A DNA stretch of 64,000 bases from Notolepis coatsorum (taxonomy: Eukaryota; Chordata; Actinopteri; Aulopiformes; Paralepididae): positions 41,881,766 to 41,945,765 of the forward strand of contig OZ020593.1 in the NCBI GenBank assembly GCA_963971535.1, given 5' to 3'. Positions 5,314 through 61,656 of the stretch are shown here, one piece after another. A model generated the notes under the pieces. That model searched no databases. It saw only the letters and a program-made list of their open reading frames with translations, and had not been told where the DNA came from. Both the position numbers and the translations under genes were made by a program. How positions within the stretch are numbered: the stretch's first letter is position 1; every line of letters begins with the position of its first letter.

Positions 5314-8300
5314 TGAATGAATGAATGAATGAAAACTTTATTTAACAGATTGCAGAATGGGTACAATACAGTACGGCTCAATACATACAATTGTTAAGGG
5401 GATGCAGACCTGAGAAAGACGTTTGTCTTGTTTCCATCAGGGTCCCCCATTTTCAATTCATATAGACATTTATGACATACATAACATACATGACATTTAT
5501 GGCATAGGGACATATAGGTATTTAGTACTGATACATTTGTGACATAGGCGGTATTCAAATATACAGTACTGTTACCCCTAGATCCTGACAGAGTATATAC
5601 ATATGATGGGGAGGGGACTGTACATTAGGAGGGGGTGGGTGGGTGGGAGGGGAATATACATACGGCGGGGAGGGAATATATACATGCGGTGGGGAGGAGA
5701 CTGTCTATTAGGAGGTGGTGGGGGTTTTGGGCATTTACGGTGGCCAGTTTCGAATTGCAGCCTCCCGTAGGTGCTCTTTAAGGGCGGTTTTGAATGTGGG
5801 CAGGGATTCACATTCCTTTACAGCTTTGGGTAGGGCGTTCCACATTGTTGTGGCATAATTGCGAAACGTGTTTAGTCCCTTGTTTGAGCCGAATCTGGGT
5901 TTAACATGATTTGTTGAGCTTCCTCTGGTGTAGTGGTTGTGGTATTCACTGACCTTTGGGAAGTATTTTGACATGTACATGGGCACCCCGGTCGTATAGT
6001 GTATCTTGTAGACCAGGCCCATTGCAAGTTGCTGTACTCTGTCGTCTACTCTAAGCCATCCTAGGTTGGCAAAGTGGGCAGGGGTGAGGTGGGTTCTGGG
6101 GTTCAGGTCAAGTAGTAGTCTGACCAGTTTGTTTTGTGATGTTTGTAATTTTGTTTTAAGCGCCTTTGAGGTGCTTTGGTACCATGAGGTGCACGCATAG
6201 TCATAGTACCCTTGAATGAGTGCTCCTGCCAGAGTCCTCAGGGTATTCTTGTTTACCAGAGAGGAGATCCGGTACAAGAATCTAGTTCGTTGGTTGACTT
6301 TTTTTATTACATTGGATGCCATTTTGTCACAGGAAAGATTTGCCTCTAGGATGGAACCCAGGTAGGTAATTTCGTCTTTCCTTGTGACAATATTGTCACC
6401 CACTGTAACTGAGAAGCCGTCGGTCTTGCTGAGTTTGTTATTTGAACCGAAGAGAATGGACTCTGTTTTGCCCATGTGTAATGATAGTTTGTTATCAGCG
6501 AGCCATATGCAGATTTTGCCTAGTTCCGTGCTGAGGGTTTTTTCAACCTGCAATTTGTTCTTGTCAGAGACCAGCAGGGCTGAGTCGTCCGCAAACAGGA
6601 ACAAGTTGCAGTCACAGGCTGACGACATGTCATTTGCATAAATTAGGAAGAGTAGCGGTCCTAGTATGCTTCCTTGTGGAACACCACAGCTCACTGTGAG
6701 GGGGGGGGATAGAGTACCGTTTACCTCTACCATCTGTTCTCTCCCCTCCAGGTAGGATTGCATCCAGCTCACTGATAGGCTATCAAAACCAATTGCTTTT
6801 AGCTTGTCCATTAGAATGGAGTGATTGACAGTGTCGAAGGCCTTTTGTAGGTCCAGCATGACCATGCCGCAGTATTTGCCAGCGTCCACCTCTTGTTTGA
6901 TGTGGTCGTTCAAATAGAGGAGGCATGTGTCAGTGGAGTGGGACGTTCTGAAGCCAGATTGGAATTCGTAGATTAGGTTTTTTTCCGCCAGGTACTTTTC
7001 GACCTGTTCGTAGACTATTTTCTCCATGACTTTCGAGATGGAGGTAAGAATAGAAACAGGGCGGTAGTTGCCTGGGTCTAATTTGCTGCCCTTTTTGTGT
7101 AGAGGGGTCACTCTCGCAATTTTGAAGTCCTTGGGGACGTGCCCCTGTTTTATAGAGAGGTTTATTATGTGTGTGATGACTGGGGTGATGGCGGCTGCTG
7201 CGTCTCTGAGGAATTTGGAGGGGATGTTGTCATGGCCAGTGGCCTTGTTAGGTTGGAGGGCGCTCAATTTTTTGAGTACCTCATCGGTTGTTACCATTTC
7301 AAGTTTGAAGTCGTCTTTGTGGACCCCTAGGTTTTTGTAGTATGCTACTATGTGTTCTACCCCATAATGCCCTGAGTGGGAGGGTAGTTTGTTTACCAGT
7401 GTTGTGGCTATGTTTGTGAAGAAGATGTTTAAGTAATTGGCTACATCCAGCTTGTCTGTGATGAGCGTGTTGTCCGTCTTTATGTTTATGTTTGAGAATC
7501 TGGTTTTAAGTTTTTTACTGCAGCCTAGTTGATTATTGAGTAATTTCCAAAGTTCGCGGGGTTTGTTTTTGTTTTCCTCAGTTTTGTCGTTGATGAAATT
7601 TCTTTTTGCGGTTCTGATCATGGTGTTTACGTCATTTCTTAGTCTGTTTCTTTGGATTTTTTGTTCAACCACGTGGGCTTGGAGTTCACTGTTTGAGCTT
7701 TTGGAAAGCTTTGTCTGACTTTTATGAAGTTCAGAGCATTTTTTGTCTCTGGTTTTCATAGCGGCCAGTATTTCAGTGTGCATCCATGCCTCAGCGTGAT
7801 TTTTAACCCTGGTGGTTCTTATCGGTGCCATGTTGTTGAGTATTGCTGTGAATTTGGTTTTGAATCCAAGCCATGTTTCTTCAACCTGTGTACCACTGAG
7901 CTCATCTGACCAGTCCAAGCTCCCCAGTTCTAGGTTAAAGGCCTCTCTAGAGTAAGTTTTGAGGTCTCTAGATGTGACTGTTTTGTGACAGCCGGCCTTC
8001 TGTTTTAGCTTTTTGCGGGTACAGAAAATCATATAATGATCACTTAACCCGCATGCTATCACCCCTTTACTGGAGATCATGGACTTGTCAGAGGTCAAAA
8101 TGAGGTCAATGGTGGTTTGTGTCGAATCGCATACCCTTGTGGGTTGTGTGATTAGCTGGCTGAAACCGTGCAGGTCAGAAAATCTACTGAAGGCCTTGAA
8201 GACGGGTGCTGATTTACGCAGCATATCCGTGTTCCAGTCCCCAATAAGAATTTTTTCTACCCCCTCCACCCCAGCTAAACACCCATCAAGTGTGTCATAA

Positions 8301-9755
8301 AACCCACTCTGTTCTGGTGGTCTATAGATTGTGCCTACTAGTACCGGTTTCGCCCTGTCTAATAAGATTTCAATCCAAACAGTTTCAATTTCATCATGGT
8401 TAAGGTCAGTACGGTTGATGTATTTGGTATCCTTGTGTATATACACACAGACGCCACCTCCATACTGGTTCCTATCCCTCCTGACTATTGAGTAGTTTTC
8501 AATTTCAATCTCTGGATCCTGTACAGATGAGTCTAATTTTGTTTCTGTGAAACACAATATGTTAGCCTTACCGTTTAAAAACAACTGTTTGATTTCAGCC
8601 AGTTTCGGTCTCAGGCTATTTGTATTCAGATGAAATATGTGAAGTCCATTTTTGCTTGTAATAAGTTTGATGTCGTCACAGTTGAGGTAACTCTGTTCAA
8701 TTGTGTCCTGTCCTGTGGTGGGGGGAGGGGGGGCGTTGTTGCTGTTTGTGCCGTGGGTGGGGAGGGGGGGGAGGGGTGATGCTTTGTCCTTTGCTGGTGT
8801 CTGTATTCCTTTGTGTGAAAGCCCGCGATGTGGGGGGGGGGGCTGGTTGATTACAGATATGTCTGATTGTACTCCATTGTGGGGGAGGGGGGGTGCCTTT
8901 TGTCCTGGCCTCGGCCCGGGTAGACTTGCTGGCATGGCGGCCTTGGCGGGGCCAGCCAAGCTAACCGTCGGGTCCTTGGTGGTCTCGATGTCCCGCGCCG
9001 CTCTCCCTTTAGCCACTCGCCGAGTCCGCTGGGGCTTCTGTGAGGGTATGTCGCCGCTTGCTGGTCGGCTGGTGCAACTGCTGGCTGAAGCGTCAATTGC
9101 GTGGATGCTGTTGATCTCCGGCGCCGGTGTGAGGAGCGATGCCTCGCTGTTTTGTCCCCGCGACGTGCTGGGCGCCTCGGTTGTGAACCCCGGTTCCTTC
9201 CCTCTCGCTGTGGCCTCTCGTGGGTTCTTTTGCAGGGGTGGCAGAGGAGGAATGTTGCCGTTGATCATGTCGTTAGCCGCAGTATGTGTGGGTAGCCGTT
9301 GATCTGTTGTGCTGGCTGCTGCTTCTTGGATCAGCAGATTTGACTGTAGTCTCTGGTTCCGTGTCATTACGGGACCAGGGTTCTGATGAATGTCACCCGA
9401 CATGAGCAGGTATAATAAAAACATTGATCTCTTATTACACTTGCCTGCCGGGGGTAATTTCTTTCGTTCCGGATTTGCAGTAAGTACTGTGTGGATGGTC
9501 GTGGCTCCGAAGGCTGGATGTTTCCTCTCCGAGCCCGTTAACAAATAGAAGTCGCAATGGGACTGCTGTTTTACGTTTTCGCTATCCTCCACTTCTGTCT
9601 GGAGTTGCTGCTTGAGTTGTGAATTCGGGTACAAATCCATAATCCACAGGAGGGAAAGTAGAAAATGCGCAAAGTACTTTGTTGTTGTTGCTCTGTTGCG
9701 TTGGTTACGGGAGCTACGTAAAATGCGACCGTCCATGTTGAAGCCGGATGCTGTG
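5314..9755 (-). mobile_element. CR1/L2-group LINE with 2A-like motif, apparently full length
   Basis: This minus-strand element is bounded by a 3' tail of TTCA repeats on the left (plus strand TGAATGAATGAATGAA from 5314) and by satellite on the right. Five bases, ATGTT, occur at both borders (5309-5313 and 9756-9760) and fit a short target duplication within a satellite unit. It carries one uninterrupted long ORF, about 420 bp of 3' UTR ending near an AATAAA signal, and only about 19 bp before the likely ATG. Partial copies of this family lie at 11536-12420, 57166-58747 and 62230-62985. Confidence 0.85.
5735..9736 (-). CDS. LINE polyprotein: 2A-like motif, endonuclease, reverse transcriptase
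   Basis: The frame of about 1333 codons has no internal stop. I start it at the ATG at 9736 (MDGRILRSSR) because the in-frame ATG 33 bases upstream (9769) lies in flanking satellite. Counting from that outer Met: a hydrophobic stretch and SGDIHQNPGP at 124-133, a 2A-like ribosome-skipping motif; a Pro- and Ser-rich linker at about 140-360; AP-like endonuclease at about 372-585 (LNTNSL, ETKLD, GGGVCVYI, YRPP, GDWN, LSDHYMI); reverse transcriptase at about 835-1130 (NKATGHDNIP, NYRPVSIL, MLDLQKAFDTV, GVPQGSILGPLLFLIYAND, LFADDSALL with FADD at 1059-1062); then a thumb/C-terminal region (NYATTMWNALPKAVKE). Such proteins nick the target and prime cDNA synthesis on their own RNA. All catalytic motifs look present. 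The clade (CR1, L2 or a relative) is uncertain. Confidence 0.9.
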   Translation of the reverse strand: MDGRILRSSRNQRNRATTTKYFAHFLLSLLWIMDLYPNSQLKQQLQTEVEDSENVKQQSHCDFYLLTGSERKHPAFGATTIHTVLTANPERKKLPPAGKCNKRSMFLLYLLMSGDIHQNPGPVMTRNQRLQSNLLIQEAAASTTDQRLPTHTAANDMINGNIPPLPPLQKNPREATARGKEPGFTTEAPSTSRGQNSEASLLTPAPEINSIHAIDASASSCTSRPASGDIPSQKPQRTRRVAKGRAARDIETTKDPTVSLAGPAKAAMPASLPGPRPGQKAPPLPHNGVQSDISVINQPPPPHRGLSHKGIQTPAKDKASPLPPLPTHGTNSNNAPPPPTTGQDTIEQSYLNCDDIKLITSKNGLHIFHLNTNSLRPKLAEIKQLFLNGKANILCFTETKLDSSVQDPEIEIENYSIVRRDRNQYGGGVCVYIHKDTKYINRTDLNHDEIETVWIEILLDRAKPVLVGTIYRPPEQSGFYDTLDGCLAGVEGVEKILIGDWNTDMLRKSAPVFKAFSRFSDLHGFSQLITQPTRVCDSTQTTIDLILTSDKSMISSKGVIACGLSDHYMIFCTRKKLKQKAGCHKTVTSRDLKTYSREAFNLELGSLDWSDELSGTQVEETWLGFKTKFTAILNNMAPIRTTRVKNHAEAWMHTEILAAMKTRDKKCSELHKSQTKLSKSSNSELQAHVVEQKIQRNRLRNDVNTMIRTAKRNFINDKTEENKNKPRELWKLLNNQLGCSKKLKTRFSNINIKTDNTLITDKLDVANYLNIFFTNIATTLVNKLPSHSGHYGVEHIVAYYKNLGVHKDDFKLEMVTTDEVLKKLSALQPNKATGHDNIPSKFLRDAAAAITPVITHIINLSIKQGHVPKDFKIARVTPLHKKGSKLDPGNYRPVSILTSISKVMEKIVYEQVEKYLAEKNLIYEFQSGFRTSHSTDTCLLYLNDHIKQEVDAGKYCGMVMLDLQKAFDTVNHSILMDKLKAIGFDSLSVSWMQSYLEGREQMVEVNGTLSPPLTVSCGVPQGSILGPLLFLIYANDMSSACDCNLFLFADDSALLVSDKNKLQVEKTLSTELGKICIWLADNKLSLHMGKTESILFGSNNKLSKTDGFSVTVGDNIVTRKDEITYLGSILEANLSCDKMASNVIKKVNQRTRFLYRISSLVNKNTLRTLAGALIQGYYDYACTSWYQSTSKALKTKLQTSQNKLVRLLLDLNPRTHLTPAHFANLGWLRVDDRVQQLAMGLVYKIHYTTGVPMYMSKYFPKVSEYHNHYTRGSSTNHVKPRFGSNKGLNTFRNYATTMWNALPKAVKECESLPTFKTALKEHLREAAIRNWPP

Positions 9756-10310
9756 ATGTTAGCTCTCATAACGTTAGTGACTTAGTGTAGTTACGTTTTT
9801 ATTAGTGGTCGCGTATTGTGTGCGTATGTACCTGTTCCCTCATCTAAAGAGTTGGGTCCATAAGGCTTTTCCAAGTCTTATGGATCCATAAGGCTTATCC
9901 AAGCCATAGCGTCTTTGTGTTATGTCTCATAACGTTAGCCAGTTAGGAAGTAGGAAATGCACTAAACCAATGCACTTGTACTTGTTTAGCAGCAACTGGA
10001 AGTAGGAAGTGCACTAGACCAATAACTAGTAGTTAGCAACGTTAGCTCTCATAACGTGCACTAAACCAATGCTAAACCAATATCTAGTAGGTAGCAACGT
10101 TAGCTCTCATAACGTGCACTAAACCAATGCACTTGTACTTGTTTAGCAGCAACCGGAAGTAGGAAGTGCACTAAACCAATGCACTTGTACAGTACGTAGC
10201 AACGTTGGCTCTCATAACGTCAGCTAGCCAGCAGCTCCGGGTACAGCAGGTAGCAACGTTAGCTCTCATAACGTTAGCCAGTTAGCAGCTCCGGGTACTA
10301 AAAATAAAGC
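9756..10310. repeat. Satellite-like tandem repeats (55-bp type and variants)
   Basis: Units share GGTACAG, TAGCAACGTTAGCTCTCATAACGT and CCAGTTAGCAGC, alternating with blocks of AAATGCACTAAACCAATGCACTTGTAC. They resume the array seen at 5255-5313, so the LINE at 5314-9755 sits inside it. The units are related to the regular 55-bp array at 42972-43768. Near 9855-9905 is a small internal inverted repeat built on CCATAAGGCTT. Confidence 0.75.
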
Positions 10311-28229: not shown

Positions 28230-28852
28230 GCAGGTGTGTGGAGCTGAACACATCCATGTGACTTGACAAGATTCTGACAAGATTAGTCAGATCAAGACTC
28301 TGGCTTCATAGCCTGTTTGGAATGTAACTGGTATAATTTGAAGGCTTAAGCTATGTTCATTTGTAGGGGGATGCACAATACATCTGTGACCATATTGGTT
28401 TTGGCCGATGATAGTGATTTTTCAGTCCAACGAGCAAAACTGGGCAGATATATTGGCAAACGTATATCGGCTGGTGATAGTGATTTCTTTATTGATTGCA
28501 TTGGTCTGATGAGCAAAACTTGGCCGATGTGAACAACGATGGCTATTTATCTGTTTGTGTGTTTTTCTTTTTTTTGGCCATGTAGTGTTTGTTTGGGTAC
28601 TGTTACTTGCATGTGACAATGACTGATTGTTAAAAAAAAATAGTATGTACAAAATTCGATACGTAGTCTATTGGAACAAGTGCCTCCATTCTATACCCAA
28701 CTGTGGCTTCCCAACTAGGCATGTGCTGGTATGATATTTTGATGGCATGATAACCTTGGACAAAAATACCACGGTTTCACAGTATATCGCGGTATTCGGT
28801 CAAGAAAAAGGACAATTATTTTTCCATTGAGCAAAATGTTTTATTACAGTGC
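28230..28852. other. hAT-type relics and the left end of an interrupted element
   Basis: About 28366-28530 is a decayed GGGGATGCACAATACATCTG repeat with a duplicated GATAGTGATTT motif. From about 28717 TAGGCATGTGCTGGTATGAT starts a hAT-like terminus that runs to the start of the 1.5-kb repeat at 28853. Confidence 0.45.
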
Positions 28853-29390
28853 TATCAGCTTTTCTGTAAGTGTTATTTATGAATGTGTGAAAATCCCAAC
28901 ATAGCTTTTAGATAGATTTATTGTATTTATACATTGTTATTTATTGTATTTTGATAGACTACAGGCCACCTCTTTGCAGGTTTAAATGACTCTACGGACA
29001 TACTGTCACTTTTATAGGCTAAGTAGATTACATTATAGTATTATTATTTTTTGTCTTGCATTACTCAATGCTCTTACATTGTTGTTTTTTGATAATTTTT
29101 GATAATTGTTTATTATTATTGATCTATTCTATGTTTGTTTTGACTCATTTCTTTATGTTGTTATAATATTTTGAGTTTGTGTGTATATATACTTATATAA
29201 TATACAAATTTGTTTATTTCTATTTAGTATTATTGTATATTTCTTCAACTCAAGAGAATGTTGCTTTGCCTTCATTTATTTGGGACCAGCTGTCCCCCAT
29301 TGTAATTAGTCACTCCCTGAGTTATGTTTTTTCCGTTTTTTCCTTGTTTCCTCTATCTAGTCACAGTATTGTTTTTGTCACAGCTACAAC

Positions 29391-29427
29391 ACCCTGAAGA
29401 AGGCCATGTAGGCCGAAACATGTCGGT
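29391..29427 (+). ncRNA. Hammerhead-like core motif, copy 1 (not proven)
   Basis: The order is ACC-CTGAAGA-A-GGCC-ATGTA-GGCC-GAA-ACATGT-C-GGT. This fits a type I hammerhead: weak stem I (ACC/GGT), CUGANGA core, stem II GGCC/GGCC with a 5-nt loop, GAAA, a palindromic stem III (ACAUGU) that could pair in a dimer, then C at the cleavage position. One extra A lies between the core and stem II. An AATAAAGG signal follows about 40 bases downstream. Confidence 0.3.
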
Positions 29428-29723
29428 TTTTTAAAAAGAATTTTCTAAATAATGTAAGCCAATAAATAAAGGCTTTTTAAATTTTTTTAGAGCTGCCTTG
29501 GATCTCAACCTTTCTTTTATAGCTGAGAGGGAATTCAAAAAAGTCTGCACTTTGTAACACATTTGAGCTATTTGACATGGTGTTAGGTATGGGTATACAG
29601 TTTTCAAAAACCACGTCATACAAGTTGGGGTAGCCGCCTGGTTGTTATGTTTAAAATCCAATATGGCCACCATCGGAAACAGTGAATGTCATATTTCAGC
29701 TTCTGTTAGTACTAGATCCTTGT

Positions 29724-29917
29724 GGGGTGCTCCAGTAGCACACCATATAGCGCGCTGAGTCGCGAAGCGGTCGCCCCGGGTTCGATTCCCAGTCCCGGTG
29801 GGCCATGGCCATTTGCCGCATGTCCTCCCTGCTTCTCCCGTTCTCCCTCTCTCCTCTGTCGGTCCTGTGTGGCCAGAAAAAGCTGTGAAAAACACTAATA
29901 AAGATAATTAAAAAAAA
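29724..29917 (+). mobile_element. tRNA-derived SINE, copy 1
   Basis: The head (GGGGTGCTCCAGTAGCAC to GGGTTCGATTCCCAG) has A- and B-box-like promoter blocks. The body ends in A-rich sequence. A perfect 16-bp target duplication, AGTACTAGATCCTTGT, flanks it at 29708-29723 and 29918-29933. Relatives are at 33576-33769 (the same insertion, duplicated) and 51861-52057. Confidence 0.93.
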
Positions 29918-30387
29918 AGTACTAGATCCTTGTTTAATATCTTTTTCTACTTTCTTTGGTGCGAAAAATCAATTTCTGAAGTAATTATTTATGTTAACAC
30001 ATTAACTGCCACATAGTTTGATCATCTTATACCATTCTCTGCCAGCACTGTAAGTCTATGGAGATGTTCACCTTCTTTGCAGGGCTATAACTTTTTAAAT
30101 TGTATTGCTAAATTGACATTACTATGGCCCATTCAACATCGATTATCTATCGTTCAGGATGTAGGAACGTTTTACTTTTTCATTCACACATTCATACGAA
30201 AATACCGTCTAGAATATAAATATGTTTTTATCGTTTTCTGCAGTAATTCCTAGAACGTGAGATATAGGCATAAATGCATATATACATTATCAAATGCCGT
30301 TTGTTGCCGATCCACGCTATATTAAAAATTTCAACTGTACATGGTCCTAAACGTTATGACTGATCATGCGCGGGTGAACGGAGGGGG

Positions 30388-32696
30388 TGGTCTATCAAAT
30401 AGACCACATATGCATCAACAGAAAGTTCAGGAGGTCATGGCAAGATGTACGAGTCAAGAGAGGGGCAGATGTGGCATCAGACCATCATCTCGTGCTGACG
30501 ATCATAAAACTACGTCTGAAGAAGTATGCCACAACCACCGGCGCAAGAACCAGATATGACGTTGGACTTCTTAGGAACAAAGAAATACAGAGTAGATTCC
30601 AGATCAGCCTTACCAACAGGTACCAGCAACTACAGGAACAGGATGAAGACACAGATGTGGACATAGAAACTCAATGGCAGCACACAAAGACGTTGTGGCT
30701 GGACACCTGCAAAGAAATATTGGGAAAGAAGAAGACAAAACACAAGGAATGGGTCTCAATGGAAACACTCCAGAAACTGAAAGAAAGAAAGGAGAGGAAA
30801 GAGATACTGAACACAAGCAAAACAAGATCAGCAAAAGCAAAGGCACAGGAAGAATACACCCAAGCCAATAAGGAGGTGAAGAGTAGCATTAAGAAGGATA
30901 AAAGAGATCACATAGACAACTTAGCCAAACAAGCAGAAACAGCGGCAGGGCAAGGCAACATGAAATACCTCTATATGATCACTAGGAAGTTAGCAGGCAA
31001 GTTCCAACAAACGGACAAACCGGTAAAAGACAAACAGGGAAACCCACTTATAACAACAGAGGACCAACGGAGAAGATGGGCTGAACATTTCAAAGAACTA
31101 CTGAACCAACCAGCCCCGACAGAGCCAGCGGACATTATACCAGCGGAGAGAACATTTCCAATAAACTGTGATAAACCCAGCAAAGCAGAGATCAAAAAAG
31201 CTATTATCTCAACAAAGGACGGAAAATCTGCAGGACCAGATGAAATACCAGCAGAAGCCATCAAGGCCGACTTGAAGACTGCGGTAGATATGCTTCATAG
31301 CCTCTTCACCAAGATCTGGGAGGAAGAAAAGATTCCAGAAGAATGGAAAGATGGAATCATCATCAAGCTACCAAAAAAGGGAGATCTTACCAACTGCAAC
31401 AACTACAGAGGAATAATGCTTCTATCAGTACCGGGAAAAGTACTCAACAGAATTATACTGGACAGAATGAGTGTTGCTGTGGATCCCATGCTTCGAGACC
31501 AGCAGGCAGGCTTCCGGAGCAACAGATCTTGCACGGACCAGATCGCCACCCTGCGCATCATTATAGAGCAATCCATCGAATGGAACTCTCCATTATACAT
31601 AAACTTCATAGACTATGAAAAAGCCTTTGACAGTGTGGATAGAGAGACTCTGTGGAAACTGCTGCGGCATTATGGTATCCCAAAGAAAATCATCACTCTG
31701 ATTCAAAACACCTATCAAGGAACATCATGCAAAGTTTTACATGCAGGCCAACTGTCAGAGAGTTTTGAGGTCAAGACCGGTGTGCGTCAGGGATGCCTCC
31801 TATCGCCCTTTCTATTCCTTCTAGTCATAGACTGGATTATGAAGACCACCACAAAAGGAAATAAAAACGGCATACAGTGGACCCTATGGACACAACTGGA
31901 TGACCTCGACTTTGCTGATGACCTGGCTCTCCTGTCACACAACTACAACCAGATGCAGGACAAGACAACCAAGCTGGCAACTACATCCCTTGAGACTGGG
32001 TTGAGAATAAACAGGAAGAAAACCAACCTAATGATGATCAACACCTCTACCAACAACACAGTCACAGTAGGTGATGAATCCATACAGGAAGTCAACTCCT
32101 TCACTTACCTAGGCAGTATCTTGGATAAGAAGGGCGGCACAGATGGCGCCGTCACAGCAAGAGTAGGCAAAGCCAGAGCAGCATTCATCATTCTGAAGAA
32201 CATCTGGTCCTCCAAGGACATCGCCATGACAACCAAAGTGCGGCTCTTCAATTCAAATGTCAAATCTGTCCTTCTCTACGGTTCAGAGACTTGGAGAATG
32301 ACGAAAAGAACATTGCAGAAGATACAGACCTTTATAAACGGCTGTCTGAAACGCATCTTTGGGATCCGGTGGCCAAACAAAATCAAGAATGAGGAACTAT
32401 GGCTGAAAGGAAGACAGGAACCAGTGGAGAAGCAGATCCTGAGACGAAAGTGGGGATGGATAGGCCACACTTTGAGGAAACCGGCTACCAGTACTACACG
32501 CCAGGCCCTGACTTGGAATCCCCAAGGGAAGCGGAAGAGAGGGCGGCCTAAGAACACCTGGAGGCGGGACACTGAGGCGGAGCTCAAGAGACAAGGAACT
32601 ACCTGGGGGGAGGCAGAAAGGACAGCCCAAAGCCGTGTTGGATGGAGAAAAGTCGTAGATGGCCTATGCTCCATTGGGAGCGATGGGCCTAAGTAA
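30388..32696 (+). CDS. RTE-like LINE endonuclease (end) and reverse transcriptase
   Basis: One open frame of about 769 codons. It opens with the last endonuclease motifs (QIDHICI, then SDHHLVL at residues 31-37), followed by a basic, Lys-rich linker and reverse transcriptase with AGPDEIPAE (282-290), CNNYRGIMLLSVPGK, INFIDYEKAFDSVD (catalytic Asp about 409), GVRQGCLLSPFLF and LDFADDLALLS (FADD 509-512). The C-terminus has VLLYGSETWRMTKRTLQKI, RRKWGWIGHTLRK, GKRKRGRPKNTWRRD and ending phrases typical of RTE-type endonuclease-reverse transcriptases. The frame is undamaged but lacks most of the endonuclease, so it is a truncated copy; the first codons come from the junction, not a natural start. 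Confidence 0.88.
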
Positions 32697-32703
32697 GTAA
32701 GAG
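30388..32703 (+). mobile_element. RTE-like LINE, 5'-truncated, between 1.5-kb direct repeats
   Basis: The element begins inside its endonuclease domain at the end of the left direct repeat and ends with a short TAAG-repeat tail (CCTAAGTAAGTAAGAG) at the start of the right one. A small perfect palindrome GGTCTATCAAATAGACC (30389-30405) sits on the 5' junction. It has almost no 3' UTR, as is usual in RTE-type elements. Confidence 0.88.
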
Positions 32704-33242
32704 TATCAGCTTTTCTGTAAGTGTTATTTATGAATGTGTGAAAATCCCAACATAGCTTTTAGATAGATTTATTGTATTATTTATACATTGTTATTTATTG
32801 TATTTTGATAGACTACAGGCCACCTCTTTGCAGGTTTAAATGACTCTACGGACATACTGTCACTTTTATAGGCTAAGTAGATTACATTATAGTATTATTA
32901 TTTTGTCTTGCATTACTCAATGCTCTTACATTGTTGTTTTTTGATAATTTTTGATAATTGTTTATATTATTATTGATCTATTCTGTTTGTTTTGACTCAT
33001 TTCTTTATGTTATAATATTTTGAGTTTGTGTGTATATATACTTATATAATATACAAATTTGTTTATTTCTATTTAGTATTATTGTATATTTCTTCAACTC
33101 AAGTTGAGAATGTTGCTTTGCCTTCATTTATTTGGGACCAGCTGTCCCCCATTGTAATTAGTCACTCCCTGAGTTATGTTTTTTCCGTTTTTTCCTTGTT
33201 TCCTCTATTTAGTCACAGTATTGTTTTTGTCACAGCTACAAC

Positions 33243-33279
33243 ACCCTGAAGAAGGCCATGTAGGCCGAAACATGTCGGT
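33243..33279 (+). ncRNA. Hammerhead-like core motif, copy 2 (not proven)
   Basis: Identical to the motif at 29391-29427, including the extra A before stem II. It lies in the right direct repeat. Confidence 0.3.
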
Positions 33280-33575
33280 TTTTTAAAAAGAATTTTCTAA
33301 ATAATGTAAGCCAATAAATAAAGGCTTTTTAAATTTTTTTAGAGCTGCCTTGGATCTCAACCTTTCTTTTATAGCTGAGAGGGAATTCAAAAAAGTCTGC
33401 ACTTTGTAACACATTTGAGCTATTTGACATGGTGTTAGGTATGGGTATACAGTTTTCAAAAACCACGTTATACAAGTTGGGGTAGCCGCCTGGTTGTTAT
33501 GTTTAAAATCCAATATGGCCACCATCGGAAACAGTGAATGTCATATTTCAGCTTCTGTTAGTACTAGATCCTTGT

Positions 33576-33769
33576 GGGGTGCTCCAGTAGCACACCATAT
33601 AGCGCGCTGAGTCGCGAAGCGGTCGCCCCGGGTTCGATTCCCAGTCCCGGTGGGCCATGGCCATTTGCCGCATGTCCTCCCTGCTTCTCCCGTTCTCCCT
33701 CTCTCCTCTGTCGGTCCTGCGTGGCCAGAAAAAGCGGTGAAAAACGCTAATAAAGATCATTTAAAAAAA
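33576..33769 (+). mobile_element. tRNA-derived SINE, copy 2 (duplicate of the same insertion)
   Basis: Same SINE with the same 16-bp target duplication (33560-33575 and 33770-33785). A handful of differences from the left copy, such as GCGGTGAAAAACG versus GCTGTGAAAAACA, indicate time since the duplication. Confidence 0.93.
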
Positions 33770-33846
33770 AGTACTAGATCCTTGTTTAATATCTTTTTCT
33801 ACTTTCTTTGGTGCGAAAAATCAATTTCTGAAGTAATTATTCTATG

Positions 33847-34752
33847 TTAACACATTAACTGCCACATAGTTTGATCATCTTATACCATTCTCTGCCAGCA
33901 CTGTAAGTCTATGGAGATGTTCACCTTCTTTGCAGGGCTATAACTTTTTAAATTGACATTACTATGGCCCATTCAACATCGATTATCTATCGTTCAGGAT
34001 GTAGGAACGTTTTACTTTTTCATTCACACATTCATACGAAAATACCGTCTAGAATATAAATATGTTTTTATCGTTTTCTGCAGTAATTCCTAGAACGTGA
34101 GATATAGGCATAAATGCATATATACATTATCAAATGCCGTTTGTTGCCGATCCACGCTATATTAAAAATTTCAACTGTACATGGTCCTAAACGTTATGAC
34201 TGATCATGCGCGGGTGAACGGAGGGGGGGGGTTCTTTTATAATTCCGTGATCGTCGTTGAATGCTTTGTGGTATGGGTGATATATAGATCAGAGCAGTTT
34301 GCATGGGTAATAATAAACACTCACGCTGAGCAAAAACAAACAAAAACATCCCGGTTATTTGATGGGGATCGAGTCGATCCATTTCCGGTTTGTATAATAA
34401 TAATAACAGCCCAAATCATGTTGATTATTGAGTTATGGCAGCGATCCATATCCACGGCGTGTGTCTACAGTCCCGCAACGATATGCGAGTGGCCGGACGT
34501 ATTTAGGAGACTCACCGATATCCAACCGGCCATTTCCGGTTTGGCAACTCGCCGATCATCCACCAGGTGGCAGTATTGAAGCGTTGCAGAGTTGTGCCGA
34601 GTTCCACTGCATCAGACGAGGCTCTGAGGGAAATATGAATACCATGGCGCAAATATGAAATATGGTCACAATAACGTCGTATGCCGTGATCTGGCAGAAT
34701 TGGCATGAACTTGAAACACGTCGTACAACGTGAATGGCGCAAGATGTGTTAA
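33847..34752. mobile_element. TTAA-flanked (piggyBac-like) element
   Basis: TTAA at 33847-33850 and 34749-34752 brackets ends CACATTAACTGCCA and, reversed, CACATCTTGCGCCATTC. Much of it aligns by eye with the element at 60136-61656, including the AAATCATGTTG, GAGTGGCCGGACG and CACTTCCGGTTT-like blocks. No transposase frame. The left third is duplicated at 29994-30387. Confidence 0.75.
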
Positions 34753-34953: not shown

Positions 34954-37045
34954 TTAGCTCTTTCACGGCCACCAGCTTTCGCCATCTGCACTGTTTGGCG
35001 CCAGCATTAATGACCATTTTTGCGATGTTTACACACCCATTGTGTGTTCTGTATTATGGAGACAATAGTATGGCTCATTTTACAGGCATTGTTCATACTC
35101 CATTACTGACTAATCAGTTCATTTCTACACTATAGTTTGTTACACGCTAAACATCGCCCCATTTCCGAAATAATCAAGTCTTTTTCCATAGCTCGCGAGA
35201 TATGACACATTATATGCAATACACGCTAAACATCGCCCCCTTTTTCCGAAATAATCCAGTCTTTTTCCATAGATCGCGAGATATGACACATTATATGCAA
35301 TAAGCCCAAATCCTTCTGGTTGATCCCCTGGAGCCCCAAATACTCCCAAATCAAAGGTATATACCATGTACATAATGTGTCTTGAACTTAAAACTGTGAT
35401 CGTTACCAAAAGCAAGTTTTACGTCCGGTAAACATGTGTGCACGCTAGGGCTGCACGATTAATCGATTTTAAATAGAAATCGCGATTTGTAATGATGCAA
35501 TTATCAAATCGCCAAAAATGATTAAATATCGCAAATCTTTATTTTATTTTTATTTTATAAATTTTTTTAACCAGGAAGTCCCATTGAGATACAAGATCGG
35601 TTTGGGAGAGGGAGGTAAGGGGTTTTAGATTGTGTGTTGTGAAGTTTAGACTTCAGAGAGGGAGAGTAAAGTACAGAAAAAAATGTACCGTTGGGTACCG
35701 GTATCGATTCCCAGGTAAAAAGAAACATTTTCAGACTCTGTGTCCCGAAAAGACCCAATGCGTAGGCCAGATGCAAGCCGCATTTTACAATAAACCTCTG
35801 TGGGGCTGCTTACATTTTTTTTTTATAATCGCAAGTTTAATCGCAATCGCAATATCTGTCAGAAAAATCGCAATTAGATTATTTCCAAAAATCGTGCAGC
35901 CCTAGTGCACACGGCGCGCGCACACAAAAATGCGTTCACAACATTCACTCGACTCGTCGCGCCATGCACCAAGTACCGGTACTCAGCTATCACCTAGTCT
36001 TTGCATAACAATAGCATAGCAATAGCATAACAAAGAATGAGAAAACCAAAATACAAGCCCTGTACCAATTGGTGGGGGTTGCTTGACCTGTGGAGTTGCT
36101 TGACCTATATCTCACCTGTGGACATTTCTTAAGTTGTGCTTCAGAAGGAAACTGTCCTTCTGTAAACTAAGTTACATTGTTAATTTAGTTTGTATTTACT
36201 TTTCTAGTTTAACTTAATTCAATTAAATAAATTGTAACTACAATATTGTATCTACAATTACATTTAAAACATTGTTTGTTTTTCAACCATATCTGTTGAA
36301 AATATAATTTCTTTATATATTGAAGGCTACATCCTGCTACCTTTTTCAGCTTCTCTATTTCAAGGCAATATTTACAAAAACTAAACTAAAACTAGTAATT
36401 TCCTATACAAACATGTTTCCTACTATTTATGCATAATAATCATCTGTTCTGTGCGCATGCGAGGGAACATGTGTGCGCATGCGCGCGCGGGAGCATGCGT
36501 GCATGTGGTGTCATTTAAACAGCGTACAGGCACTTATATTACGACTGCACCCCTGGATACAGAAGCATGTTTTATGTAAAAAAAAAAATACCAGCAGGTT
36601 ACCTAAGAAAGACCTTACCTCAGTCAGAAAGTACTCCAAAATGAATAAATCCCAGTCGATCCCATGACGATCACAATTACTCGTGTATATTGGGCATGGC
36701 TACCATACGGTAAATAATAGCTCTTGAGGCACCAAATCTTCCAACGATTGCTATGTTGTGATCCACTCCTAGGCGGAAACAGCCGGAGTGGATCACAAGA
36801 CAAGCGATATCCTCAGTTCCCAGTTCAAAAGGTAGGCGATACTGCCACCTGGTGAGATTCGATGGTCATTGCAATTCCAACATAGGTAGATGAATCACAG
36901 ACACCTAGAGGGCTCCGGCTGACCGTATAGAACGCGGATCAAAGGAAAATATCAAAGGATCAAAACCTGAGTATACTCTGTTTCTGGCACTCAACGGTTA
37001 GCGAGATAACCCGACTTTACTCGGGTTTGGCCGTCAAAGAGTTAA
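34954..37045. mobile_element. TTAA-family element carrying a nested hAT
   Basis: The left border TTAG-CTCTTTCACGGCCACC (TTAA changed in one base) mirrors the right border GGCCGTCAAAGAG-TTAA at 37042-37045. Inside are a 78-bp tandem duplication (35142-35300), the hAT MITE at 35446-35904, and a hairpin with 12-bp arms GTGATCCACTCC/GGAGTGGATCAC (36758-36796). No coding frame. Confidence 0.6.
35446..35904. mobile_element. hAT MITE (TAGGGCTGCACGATTAATCG family), copy 2
   Basis: Same ends and interior as copy 1 at 23949, flanked by an 8-bp duplication with one mismatch, GTGCACGC/GTGCACAC. Confidence 0.93.
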
Positions 37046-38042: not shown

Positions 38043-39540
38043 GTGCCTCCCTCCCCAGTGATATGGACCCTATGCAATTTGCATACAGGACAAACAGGTC
38101 CACTGACGACGCGGTCTCCCAGGTACTGCACAGCACCCTCTCTCACCTTGACCGCCAGAAGGGGGGCATGTGAGACTGTTGTTCATTGACTACAGCTCAG
38201 CGTTCAACACCATAGTCCCCACCAGACTGGTGGACAAGCTGATCGAGCTGGGTCTGAGCTCCGCTCTGAGCGCCTGGGTACTGGACTTTCTGAGTGAAAG
38301 ACCCCAGGCAGTCAGGGTGGGGGGTCAGACCTCCAACACCATCACCCTGAGCATCGGGTCCCCCCAGGGCTGTGTTCTGAGCCCCCTGCTGTACTCACTC
38401 TACACACACGATTGTGTGGCCAAGTTCAGCTCCAACGCCATAGTGAAGTTTGCAGACGACACGGTGGTGGTGGGGCTGATCTCGGACAACGACGAGAAGG
38501 CCTACCGGGAGGAGGTTGAGGTACTGGAACGCTGGTGCCAGGACAACAGCCTGCTCCTGAACATTGGTAAAACCAAGGAGCTGATCGTGGATTATAGAAG
38601 AGGACAGCAGGAGACACACATACCACTGAGGATAAACAGGGCTACCATGGACAGGGTGAGCAGCTTTAAGTACCTGGGGGTCCACATCTCAGAGGATCTG
38701 ACATGGTCAACACACATAGACACAGTTGTAAAAAAGGCGAAGCAGCGCCTCTACCACCTGAGACAGTTAAGGAAGTTCAGAGTATCTGGGAAGATACTCC
38801 AGTCCTTCTACTCCGGAGTTGTAGAGAGCATCTTGACTGGAAACATCACTGACTGGTATGGAAACAGCACAGCACAGGACAAGAAGGCCCTACAGAGAGT
38901 GGTGCGCTCAGCCGAGCGTACCACGGGTATTGCACTACCTCCCCTGCAGGTTCTATACAACAAGAGGTGCAAATCCAGAGCCTGCAGAATAATGAAAGAC
39001 CCTCACCACCCCAACAACAGCCTGTTCCAGCTGCTGAGGTCAGGCAGACGCCTGCGAACCCCAGCTACTAGGACAGAGAGGCTTTGGCTCAGCTTCTTCC
39101 CCCAGGCCATCAGAGCCTTGAACACTGAACACTGAGTGCCACAGAACACTGAACTCTCCACACACAAGCACACATGAGCACACACACGACATGCACGCTG
39201 TACACGCTCGCACACTAGCAGCCACTTTAACATGAGCAAGCACACACTCATGCTGCACACGCCCACACTTATGGCCACAAAGGAAAGGTCACTTTAAAAA
39301 TAGTATAGCAACAGTAACAGTGTATTGCACTACCAAAGGACCTAGCATGTCCTCCATGCTCTGTAAATAACTTATGTACAAATACCGAGATGCCCCACTA
39401 TGTTACCTGTTTATTGCACAATGTTGTTTTATTGGATTCTATTATATGTTGTACTACTGTATTGCACATCGTTGCGGGCAAGACCACCCGCATTTTATTG
39501 TATACTTGTATGCCGTGACAAATAAAACTCTTGACTTGAC
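38043..39540 (+). mobile_element. Rex1-like LINE (second subfamily), 5'-truncated
   Basis: It starts within the RT domain and ends with an AATAAA signal and the tail CTCTTGACTTGACT. It is clearly diverged from the copy at 732 while keeping all RT motifs, so two Rex1-like lineages are present. Another Rex1-like fragment is inserted exactly in its tail. Confidence 0.85.
38170..39135 (+). pseudogene. Rex1-like reverse transcriptase, C-terminal part
   Basis: An open frame of 321 codons runs from [13 protein letters not shown] through [52 protein letters not shown] and [14 protein letters not shown] to [10 protein letters not shown]. About 120 bases of RT sequence upstream (MDPMQFAYRTNRSTDDA) lie in another frame: one base has been lost near the G-run at 38161-38166. 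The endonuclease and RT N-terminus are absent. Confidence 0.85.
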
Positions 39541-42793: not shown

Positions 42794-44638
42794 TACCGTA
42801 ATTTTCGCACTATAAGCCGCACCTGATTATAAGCCGCAGCAGCTAAATTGAATGATGTGTACATATATAAGCCGCACTATGTAAGGGTATGTAAGGGTTC
42901 GTGCACAGAGGGGATTGTCGGGAAAGAGATGGCTGTTTGAGGAAGCTCCCATTTATTAAAATTTGTTTAAACAGGAACGATAGCCAGTTAGCCAGCGCCA
43001 GGTACAGTAGCTACCAACGTTAGCTCACATAACAATAGCCAGTTAGCCAGCGCCAGGTACAGTAGCTACCAATGTTAGCTCACATAACGATAGCCAGTTA
43101 GCCAGCGCCGGGTACAGTAGCTACCAACGTTAGCTCTCATAACGATAGCCATTTAGCCAGCGCCAGGTACAGTAGCTACCAACGTTAGCTCTCATAACGA
43201 TAGCCAGTTAGCCAGCGCCAGGTACAGTAGCTACCAATGTTAGCTCTCATAACGATAGCCAGTTAGCCAGCGCCAGGTACAGTAGCTACCAATGTTAGCT
43301 CACATAACGATAGCCAGTTAGCCAGCGCCGGGTACAGTAGCTACCAACATTACCTCTCATAACGATAGCCATTTAGCCAGCGCCAGGTACAGTAGCTACC
43401 AACGTTAGCTCTCATAACGATAGCCAGTTAGCCAGCGCCAGGTACAGTAGCTACCAACGTTAGCCCTCATAACGATAGCCAGTTAGCCAGCGCCAGGTAC
43501 AGTAGCTACCAACGTTAGCTCTCATAACGATAGCCAGTTAGCCAGCGCCAGGTACAGTAGCTACCAACGTTAGCTTTCATAATGATAGCCAGTTAGCCAG
43601 CACCAGGTGCAGTAGCTACCAACGTTAGCTCTCATAACGATAGCCAGTTAGCCAGCGTCGGGTACAGTAGCTACCAACGTTAGCTCTCATAACGATAGCC
43701 AGTTAGCCAGCACCACAGGTACAGTAGCTACCAACGTTAGCTCACATAACGATAGCCAGTTAGCCAGTAGGCTTGGGCGGTATGACGGTATTACGGTATA
43801 CCAGGGTATTTAGAAATCCCGACGGTAATCACAGATGCGTTTCAGTTTATATTACACTGAAACAGAGTTTTGACAGTGGTTAGTTGTAGTGCACACACGC
43901 GCCAGCAGAGGGCGAGACCAGTCCTCACTAGTGGAGCGACCACACGCAGAGCTGGTTGTCTTCTACACACAGGAGGAGGGGAAACCCCGCTTCAGTGGTG
44001 GAAATTAAATGAGACACGCTTACCGTTGCTGGTGCTAACTGGCTATTCTGAGAGCTAACTGTTGTGTATGTGGATCACAACGGTGTTCACGCTTTACGGT
44101 AATGTTGCGACAGTGCTGTGAAAATACCGTAAAGCGTTGTGCTAACAAGAGTGTGTGTTGTGCACTGGTGGAGCAAGCAAATAAACGGTAAAACGTTACA
44201 TCGCAGTCCGGTGCGTTTTTGAATACACAATACTAACGTTACTAGGGTGCTGCAGGCTTCTGGCTACCATTCTGAGAGCTAACGTTAGTAGTAGCTAGAT
44301 AACATTAGACAACGCCTCATGTATTAATAAACTAAAGTGAATAGTTCGTTGACTGGGTCATTTTGTTTAATGCTTCAGTTATGTTTAAAGAGGAGCTCTG
44401 AGCTGCTCATGCACTCCTCTTGCCGTAATGGTTTGTTGACGTGGTTATGTGAGGCGGAGGAGGAGGGGCAAGGTGTGCACTGCTGCAGCAGATTTAGGAG
44501 TCTGATCTGACGGTCACAGAGCTGAGGGAGTGCGCCCAGTTAGCTGTAAAAATCCATAGATTAGCCGCACCGTTATATAAGCCGCAGGGTCGAAAAATGG
44601 GGGGAAAAGCCGCGGCTTATAGTCCGAAAATTACGGTA
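42794..44638. mobile_element. DNA transposon with ATAAGCCGC ends, carrying a satellite
   Basis: Ends TACCGTAATTTTCGCACTAT and ATAGTCCGAAAATTACGGTA form an inverted repeat, each continuing with AAGCCGC motifs, in an AT-rich target (TA or ATAT). The interior contains the 55-bp satellite at 42972-43768 and, from about 43775, a second MITE-like start (GGGCGGTATGACGGTATTAC). No transposase is visible. Confidence 0.8.
42972..43768. repeat. 55-bp tandem array, about 14.5 copies
   Basis: The unit GATAGCCAGTTAGCCAGCGC-CAGGTACAGTAGCTACCAAC-GTTAGCTCTCATAAC repeats with a strict 55-bp period and mostly single-base variants. Related, less regular units flank the LINE at 5314-9755. Confidence 0.97.
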
Positions 44639-57165: not shown

Positions 57166-58299
57166 CTGCTGGACCTACAAAAGGCCTTCGACACTGTCAA
57201 TCACACCATTCTGATTGACAAGCTAAAAGCAATTGGTTTTGATAGTTTATCAGTGAGCTGGATACAATCCTACCTGGAGGGGAGGGAACAGATGGTGGAG
57301 GTAAACGGTACCCTATCCCCCCCCCTCACAGTGAGCTGCGGTGTTCCACAAGGAAGCATACTAGGACCGCTACTATTCCTAATTTATGCAAATGACATGT
57401 CGTCAGCTTGTGACTGCAACTTGTTCCTGTTTGCGGACGACTCAGCCCTGCTGGTCTCTGACAAGAACAAGTTACAGGTTGAAAAAGCCCTCAGCTCGGA
57501 ACTAGGCAAAATCTGCATATGGCTCGCCGACAACAAACTATCATTACACATGGGCAAAACAGAGTCCATTCTCTTCGGTTCAAATAACAGACTCAGCAAG
57601 ACCGACGGCTTCTCGGTTACAGTGGGTGACAATATTGTCACAAGGAAAGATGGAATTACCTACCTGGGTTCCATCCTAGAGGCTAATCTTTCCTGTGACA
57701 AAATGGCATCCAATGTAATAAAAAAAGTCAACCAACGAACTCTATTCTTGTACCGGATCTCCTCTCTGGTAAACAAGAATACCCTGAAGACTCTAGCAGG
57801 AGCACTCATTCAAGGGTACTATGACTATGCTTGCACCTCATGGTACCAAAGCACCTCAAAGGCACTAAAAAACAAATTACAAACATCTCAAAACAAGCTA
57901 GTCAGACTACTGCTTGACCTGACTCCTAGAACCCACCTCACCCCTGCCCACTTCGACAACCTAGGATGGCTTAGAGTAGACGACAGAGTACAGCAACTTG
58001 CAATGGGCCTGGTCTACAAGATACACTACGCGACCAAGGTACCCATGTACATGTCAAAATACTTCCCAAAGGTCAGTGAATACCACGATCACAACACCAG
58101 AGGGAGCTCCACAAATCATGTTAAACCCAGATTTGGCTCAAACAAGGGACTAAACACGTTTCGCAATTATGCCACATCAATGTGGAACGCCCTACCCAAA
58201 GCTGTAAAGGAATGTGAATCACTACCCACTTTCAAAAACACTCTCAAAAAACACCTACGTGAGACAGCAATTCGAAACTGGCCCCTACAAATGTCCTAA
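57166..58299 (+). pseudogene. 2A-LINE reverse transcriptase, intact C-terminal part
   Basis: One open frame covers RT from the LDLQKAFDTV motif, through GVPQGSILGPLLFLIYAND and LFADDSALL, to the normal C-terminus (NYATSMWNALPKAVKE, LRETAIRNWPLQMS, stop 58297-58299). No internal stops, but endonuclease, 2A-like motif and the first half of RT are missing, so it is a dead-on-arrival copy. Confidence 0.9.
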
Positions 58300-60135: not shown

Positions 60136-61656
60136 TTAACCCTTTATCTGCCAGGGATTATTCTGATCTTAATCACCTCTCTGCCACCACTGTAAGTCTA
60201 TGGAGATGTTCCCCTTCTTTGCAGGGCTATAACTTTTTAAATTGTATTGCTAAATTGACATTACTATGGCCCATTCAACGTCAAGTATCTATCGTTTAGG
60301 ATGTAGCAACGTTCTACTTTTTCATTCACATATTCATACTAAAATACGGTCTAAAGTATAAATATGTTTTTATCGTTTTCTGCAGCATTCTGCAGAACGT
60401 GAGTTATAGGCATAAATACATATATTAGATCATCAAATGTAGTTTGATACCGATTGACGTCGGATAAAAAATTTCAATTGTACAAGGTCCTAAACGTCAT
60501 GCTTCATCATCTGCTGGCGACCGGGGGGGGGGGGGGGGGGGGTAGCGTTGGGCGATCAGCGTGGAGCAGAAAGTTCGCTATTATGGGATGTTGATCTAGT
60601 TGGTCCAGTTCCAGGTTGTATAATACTATATACGTCCAAATCATGTTGTTTATCGAGTTATTGGCAACGGATCGCTATCCAGTGTATCAAGCTGGAGTCC
60701 CGAGAGCGATAGCGAGTGGCCGGACGAAATATGGGTGAGCACTAGGGATGCCCCGATCACGTTTTTTGCCACCGATACCGATCACCGATCGTCGTGAGCC
60801 ATATCGGCCGATACCGATCCGATACAGATCGTTTTTGATTAAAAGAAATAAAATTTTATTTTATATAATTTTTTTAATATTTTTATTTTTAATATATATA
60901 TTTGATATATAACGTTAATACAACGCCTCAGTGAATTATTTAGTTCAATGGGACATTTCGTTTTGAACAGTGAACTAACTTGCGCTAACGTGAGCTAACA
61001 GCTAACAGCTAACAGGTATCATACACATCTACTAGACTTGATGGAGCGTTTGTTGATGTCAGGAGCTATCGGTAGCTGGCCGGCTAGATACCGTTCGGTT
61101 AGACAATGCCTCATCATGTATTAAACTAAAAGTGAATAGTTGACTGGGTCATTTTGTAACGGTAGCTAAGCTAACGTTAGCTCAGGGAGACGCCGTCCTC
61201 CCGTGTCCCGTCTCACTAGACTAGAAGACCCGTGTTTACATGCGTGCGGGAGGGGCTGGAGGGATGAGCAGACGCCGCACCACCCGGTGTCTGAGACGGA
61301 ACTAGATCGGCTTTGACGATCGGCGAAAATAAAGCATTATCACTGATCGCATATTTATACTGATTATCGGCCGATAACGATCGGTGGCCGATGGATCGGG
61401 GCATCCCTAGTGAGCACCACTTCCGGCCGCTCACTTCCGGTTTTGGCACCTCGCCGATCGGCCACCAGATGGCGGTCTTGCACCGTTGGAGAGTTGAGAG
61501 GAGCTCTACAGCACCCGTCAAGTCTCCGTGGGTGCAATATGATTGCCATGACAGATTTTTGAAATATTGATCTCAAAGACGCTGTACGACGTCATTGGCA
61601 GATTACGCATGGCGAGGAATGACGTCTAAACACGTCATTGGCGATTAAAGGGTTAA
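60136..61656. mobile_element. TTAA-flanked (piggyBac-like) element with nested hAT
   Basis: TTAA at 60136-60139 and 61653-61656 brackets CCCTTTATCTGCCAGGG and, reversed, CCCTTTAATCGCCAATGACG. It aligns along much of its length with 33847-34752. It has a run of about 19 G near 60524-60542. The hAT at 60743-61409 interrupts it. Its right TTAA is also the left TTAA of the next element. Confidence 0.78.
60743..61409. mobile_element. hAT MITE (TAGGGATGCCCCGATC family)
   Basis: Ends TAGGGATGCCCCGATCA and GGATCGGGGCATCCCTA are flanked by a perfect 8-bp duplication GTGAGCAC (60735-60742 and 61410-61417). Confidence 0.97.

Follow-up and report, generated by a model that had tools for sequence, protein, structure and literature searches.

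A single insertion of an RTE-like LINE probably produced the 1.5-kb direct duplication between whose copies the element now lies, and the duplicated segment would then be a target-site duplication; judging from sequence comparisons, we put the probability of this reading at roughly 0.8. The earlier note on this DNA had recognized the topology of a target duplication, and this is supported by paralogs of the two outer junctions, by a target motif at the 3' end of the LINE and, weakly, by the similar ages of the LINE and the duplication. The window, by which we mean the whole stretch of DNA that was analyzed, is 64,000 nt long, contains no N, and comes from a 134-Mb contig of a 3.42-Gb assembly. 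From left to right, the locus consists of old flank (to position 28852), left copy, TGGTCT, LINE, AG, right copy and old flank again, and its features are as follows (a slash marks a junction).

28839-28854, + strand: predicted first-strand nick site, a four-T run 11-14 nt upstream and then C/TA at 28852/28853
28853-30387, + strand: left copy of the duplicated target, 1535 bp
28916-29521, + strand: one arm of a dispersed element that lies within the target and recurs in the right copy; it served to polarize changes
29710-29932, + strand: SINE that lies within the target, recurs in the right copy and has a direct repeat of its own, TACTAGATCCTTG
30387-30407, + strand: palindrome GTGGTCTATCAAATAGACCAC, with arms of 9 nt and a loop of 3 nt, formed where TGGTCT meets the start of the LINE
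30388-30393: TGGTCT, six extra bases between the left copy and the LINE
30394-32701, + strand: RTE-like LINE, 5'-truncated, 2308 bp, with the 3' end TAAGTAAGTAAG and a (TAAG)3 tail
32702-32703, + strand: AG, two extra bases between the LINE tail and the right copy
32704-34227, + strand: right copy of the duplicated target, 1524 bp
33847-34752, + strand: TTAA-ended element, complete in the right copy and cut off in the left copy

The direct repeat is real, and the LINE lies exactly between its copies. Over about 1515 aligned columns, the left and right copies differ by seven substitutions and eight indels (of 3, 2, 2, 2, 3, 3, 1 and 13 bp), and a chance origin of the repeat is excluded because the copies share exact blocks of 282 and 300 nt. 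The earlier note's description of an RTE-like LINE between direct copies of about 1.5 kb was thus accurate, including the edges of the copies (28853-30387 and 32704-34227), as was its observation that the left copy ends within a TTAA element, the TTAA ends of which lie at 33847 and 34752 in the right copy. Its statement that the copies differ by substitutions and small indels also stands, except that the differences are not scattered evenly: five of the seven substitutions fall within 43 bp (29868-29910) in the tail of the SINE. Among the best 40 of 7492 candidate matches to the unit, two places are near full length, both at the window locus, and the others are parts of dispersed families; no third near-full-length place that might represent a single-copy unit elsewhere in the assembly was found among these 40.

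Several of the repeats in and around the target have features of their own. Members of the 606-bp family to which the arm at 28916-29521 belongs are found in opposite-orientation pairs, which among the listed places lie up to about 4 kb apart (for example, C29:130497394- and 130499109+, or C24:9399331- and 9402749+); the family therefore probably represents long terminal inverted repeats of a DNA element. A second, diverged copy of the TTAA-ended element is present at 60166-61496 of the window, in pieces that are 76-83% identical; this is the same element whose first part the LINE cuts at 30387. To the right of the complete TTAA-ended element, an 81-bp tandem duplication (two copies, 93% matches) occupies 35141-35302. 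A 55-bp tandem array of 14 copies is found at 42976-43767, and shorter arrays at 10014-10298, 33 kb away, look related to it by eye. Long open frames at 5735-9769 (- strand), 615-2618, 38170-39135 and 57253-58299, one of them of 1344 aa, have products that by eye resemble other LINE endonuclease/reverse transcriptases.

The outer junctions of the duplication are ancestral, and the two LINE junctions derived, because all listed paralogs run through each outer edge. Specifically, 39 of 39 other listed matches to 28720-28920 cross 28852/28853 in one alignment, and 39 of 39 other listed matches to 34130-34400 cross 34227/34228 in the same manner (best 40 candidates in each search). A dispersed repeat, labelled a hAT terminus in the earlier note and thus a putative one, spans the left edge of the left copy. 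In a base-by-base alignment, six of its paralogs have ...TTATTACAGTGC followed by ACA(A) and ATCAGC, and the window reads GTGC and then TATCAGC, a private difference of two or three bases at the very edge. From the T onward this difference is common to both units, and it therefore predates the duplication. At the right edge, eight of the 39 paralogs were aligned base by base and are unbroken through a G-run of variable length. The LINE is flanked, then, by direct repeats of one ancestral target segment. The earlier proposal that removal of the LINE and one copy restores a single uninterrupted locus is borne out by the paralogs that cross both outer junctions.

The element can be classed as RTE-like by its size, single frame, TAAG tail and insertion signature. 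RTE elements measure about 3.2-3.9 kb and carry one frame of about 900-1070 aa that encodes an AP-type endonuclease and a reverse transcriptase (PMC1291365). The longest sampled copies of the family in this genome are about 3343 bp, and one sampled copy retains an open 1002-aa frame with Exo_endo_phos and RVT_1 domains, that is, endonuclease and reverse transcriptase. The (TAAG)n tail corresponds to the A-rich tetramer or pentamer 3' end of the RTE clade. Also, the Tn-TA signature of this clade, which comprises a T stretch about 10 nt upstream and a duplication that starts with T or A (PMC13295347), agrees with the base preferences of 20 family sites. The window LINE lacks approximately the first third of the element, and its 769-aa frame (30387-32696) is still open. 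Matches to the query part of this LINE have 99-100% identity in 40 of 40 scored places (best 40 of 720), and the exact 21-base tail pattern has 255 matches in the genome (122 forward and 133 reverse).

We evaluated the 3' junction of the LINE by using a target-site matrix derived from 20 other insertions with short duplications, from which the window copy was left out. In these 20 family sites, T occupies positions -13, -12 and -11 in 11, 13 and 14 cases, respectively, C or T is found at -1 in 19, and T or A at +1 in 16. The 3' junction lies at a site of this kind: 28852/28853 scores in the top 0.21% of window positions. By this matrix, position 28919, less than 100 bp from the junction, scores higher still; in leave-one-out analysis, 15 of the 20 true sites rank within the best 5.3%, and the other five lie between 14 and 49%.

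The same matrix bears on the possibility that two LINEs of this family stood 1.5 kb apart on two haplotypes, and that unequal crossing-over between them, or an assembly chimera, generated the order unit-LINE-unit. Such an event predicts the same topology and exact edges; the 99-100% identity of the listed LINE copies makes recombination or mis-joining possible, and runs of N adjoin two of the 30 other LINE copies that we sampled. However, two insertions would have had to fall within 1.5 kb of each other in a genome of 3.4 Gb that has 255 exact-tail matches, and a family target site would be expected near the end of the left copy. No such site was found 6-17 bp before that end, where the best of 12 positions ranks in the top 9.7%, about what is expected by chance, in a matrix that also gives poor scores to five of 20 true sites. 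The window, moreover, has no N. We therefore consider crossing-over or a chimera unlikely.

To place the duplication within the behavior of the family, we sampled 30 other copies, 20 of them together with about 3 kb to either side and 10 with about 130 bp beyond the 3' end. Of the 20 wide-flank copies, 17 have matching ends of 9-16 bp; the other three have no matching ends (L011), lack the 3' part (L019) or are bordered by N (L025). Short duplications are also present in three of the 10 narrow-flank copies, namely 14 bp in L063, 12 bp in L066 and about 10 bp with one mismatch in L059, and of the others one is bordered by N (L057) and six (L058, L060, L061, L062, L064 and L065) gave no assignable duplication. 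Overall, 20 of 30 copies have short duplications, 10 are unassigned and none was seen to have a long one. The expectation that LINE duplications are normally short thus holds in the assignable copies of this family (9-16 bp in 20 of 30), and the search that the earlier note proposed for other copies with long flanking repeats yielded none among the 30, of which 10 are unassigned. Long duplications as a habit of the family were considered on the same counts and were not seen.

Among the 20 wide-flank copies, no long direct repeat ends at both edges of the element within the roughly 3 kb on each side. Direct repeats away from the element do exist in some copies (163 bp at 97.5% in L015, and arrays in L014 and L022). 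The window duplication, at 1535 bp, is outside the usual 9-16 bp of the family, no short target duplication is seen at the window LINE, and the long duplication is exceptional within this 30-copy sample.

Two further observations concern individual copies. L011 is a nearly full-length, young copy that has no visible target duplication; it was considered as a second long case and rejected, since its flanks were not seen repeated around the insertion. The outer half of its 3' flank consists of a repeat that recurs on the same contig at distances of 107 kb and more, and the insertion perhaps caused a target deletion. L012 (C1:120.60 Mb) and L019 (C1:120.37 Mb), which are 230 kb apart, have the last approximately 36 bases of their 5' flanks in common, which suggests a larger local duplication that carries the LINE.

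The ages of the LINE and of the duplication were compared through their divergence. The window LINE has six private substitutions over 2308 bp (0.26%) relative to 18 other aligned copies (of 20, two being left out as rearranged), and the two units differ by 0.46%, or 0.23% per lineage. The per-lineage ratio of unit to LINE is 0.89, which fits a single age for both, in a weak test with a wide interval (0.26-3.2).

When the SINE-tail cluster is removed, this ratio becomes 0.25 (0.03-1.4), and the duplication looks younger than the LINE; the chance that five of seven substitutions cluster in 43 bp of the SINE tail is about 1e-4. The lower ratio would agree with an order of events in which insertion of the LINE, accompanied by a short duplication, preceded duplication of its flank by slippage or repair. 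A later duplication, however, has no reason to place its edges at the 3' and 5' ends of the LINE, and the short duplication has left no visible remnant; such a history is very unlikely. Lower still do we rate the reverse order, in which a tandem duplication came first and the LINE then inserted at its join. Tandem duplications are common, but the LINE must have struck the join to the base and made no short duplication, the join must have coincided with a family target motif that is present in the left flank, and the units are, per lineage, no more diverged than the LINE.

The differences between the units were polarized by using as outgroups 14 copies each of two dispersed families. Among 15 differences, five are derived in the left copy, six are derived in the right copy, one is ambiguous and three are without polarity; because derived changes occur in both copies, both units have drifted. 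For the same reason, error-prone copying of one unit at its birth is unsupported. Patch conversion of the SINE tail is unsupported as well, in that the four polarized changes of the cluster are split two left and two right. The left changes in the SINE tail are two CpG losses that are also found in another copy of the SINE (L043), and one of the right changes is also found in a further copy (L049). With respect to indels, eight distinguish the units and none is found in the LINE; the unit is AT-rich with many short repeats, and its indel excess may result from this composition.

The 5' junction of the LINE carries the palindrome listed above. Read on the opposite strand, TGGTCT matches LINE bases that lie immediately within the 5' end, and it is not LINE sequence in its usual place, because other LINE copies differ upstream of ATCAAATAG. 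A stem of this kind arises in 0.0002 of random flanks joined to the LINE start and at 0.0019 of random window positions, and the largest such stem in 19 other LINE copies is 6. With one mismatch or fewer allowed, the palindrome has one match in the genome, at the window locus, which shows only that it is not a family feature. Probably, the palindrome was formed when the 3' end of the cDNA snapped back, was extended and was then joined. Snap-back is the simplest reading of the scar, part of which may nevertheless come from the target. In other copies of the TTAA element (eight of 39 were aligned), the G-run is followed by TC, so GGTC at 30389-30392 could be target and not filler. When joins of the target G-run to the LINE were simulated, a 7-bp stem appeared in 0.1-1% of cases and a 9-bp stem at a frequency of 0.00008-0.0003.

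The two dissimilar junctions also speak against a false haplotype duplication in the assembly, with the units being two alleles, which we rate no higher than a duplication that preceded the LINE: a substitution divergence of 0.46% is within the range of allelic divergence, and gaps adjoin two of the 30 other copies, but both junctions are on one gapless LINE, of which one end shows the target motif and the tail and the opposite end a scar that resembles repair, and the near-full-length places listed for the unit (best 40 of 7492) are just the two found here.

If a single LINE insertion made the duplication, events may have been as follows. The endonuclease would have nicked the bottom strand at 28852/28853 and primed cDNA synthesis there, by target-primed reverse transcription, and synthesis would have stopped early, which would give a 5'-truncated copy. 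The 3' end of the cDNA then probably folded back and was extended by 6-7 nt, either by the reverse transcriptase or by a repair polymerase. The usual second nick, 9-16 bp away, would have gone unused, and at a G/C run the end of the cDNA would have been joined to a distant break, which lay about 1.5 kb downstream in either the same duplex or the sister chromatid. As observed, the 5' end of the LINE is joined to target sequence 1.5 kb downstream of 28852/28853. Fill-in would have left the 1.5-kb stretch on both sides, after which each copy would have drifted on its own. Use of a distal nick in the same duplex or of a sister-chromatid break would give the same structure at the locus, and the former is perhaps slightly the likelier. 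The scenario as a whole, in which the truncated cDNA of an RTE-like LINE snapped back, was extended and became linked to a break far from the nick, perhaps in the sister chromatid, such that LINEs beyond human L1 are natural makers of kilobase-scale tandem duplications, is a tentative proposal, more apt to fail in some part than to hold throughout.

Comparable structures have been described for human L1. In cells deficient in nucleotide-excision repair, L1 target duplications are between 5 bp and 5.3 kb long (median 1495 bp), and the use of a distal, unrelated nick was proposed; in HeLa cells, duplications longer than 100 bp never made up more than 10% of events (PMC5223499). As in the window, kilobase direct repeats flank a LINE that has an endonuclease site at its 3' end, with the median of 1495 bp to be set beside about 1530 bp here; the human events took place in cultured repair-deficient cells, whereas the window holds a natural RTE-like insertion with a palindromic 5' junction. 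One tumor carries a 22.6-Mb tandem duplication with a single L1 between its two copies (PMC7058536, Fig. 7 legend), an arrangement that was explained by the joining of the cDNA to a sister-chromatid break downstream of the nick (PMC7058536). That case resembles ours in having a LINE between duplicated segments and an endonuclease motif at the 3' breakpoint, and differs in that its duplication is of 22.6 Mb and somatic, whereas here one of 1.5 kb is found in a genome assembly. By analogy, the structure of the locus fits either the distal-nick or the sister-chromatid route.

Within the RTE clade, SR3 of Schistosoma mansoni is similar to the family studied here in its size (about 3.2-3.3 kb), its one endonuclease-reverse transcriptase frame, its TAAG tail and its ordinary duplications of 10-12 bp, the last as in most assigned family copies; the window LINE has a kilobase duplication, whereas for SR3 none is mentioned in the portion of PMC1291365 used here. 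No natural kilobase-long target duplication of an RTE element was found in the literature that we searched. R9 of rotifers, a site-specific rDNA non-LTR element, reportedly has an exceptionally long and regular target duplication of about 126 bp. R9 and the window LINE are both non-LTR elements with a long duplication; that of R9 is shorter and regular, whereas the one described here is a single exceptional insertion of a dispersed family.

That a natural case occurs in a different type of LINE, in which the nick site, the 5' scar and the age can be read, suggests that the second-strand step can fail likewise elsewhere, and that LINEs may have produced some of the small tandem duplications of large, repeat-rich genomes. 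If this is true, a readable snap-back scar could help to find other such events, and the full set of copies (255 exact tail matches) would allow the rate of long duplications to be measured. The locus is less extraordinary than the earlier note implied, given that similar L1 cases have been published (PMC5223499 and PMC7058536). It is a well-supported natural example of an outcome that is rare but known, and its novelty lies mainly in the type of LINE, in its setting and in the scar at its 5' end.
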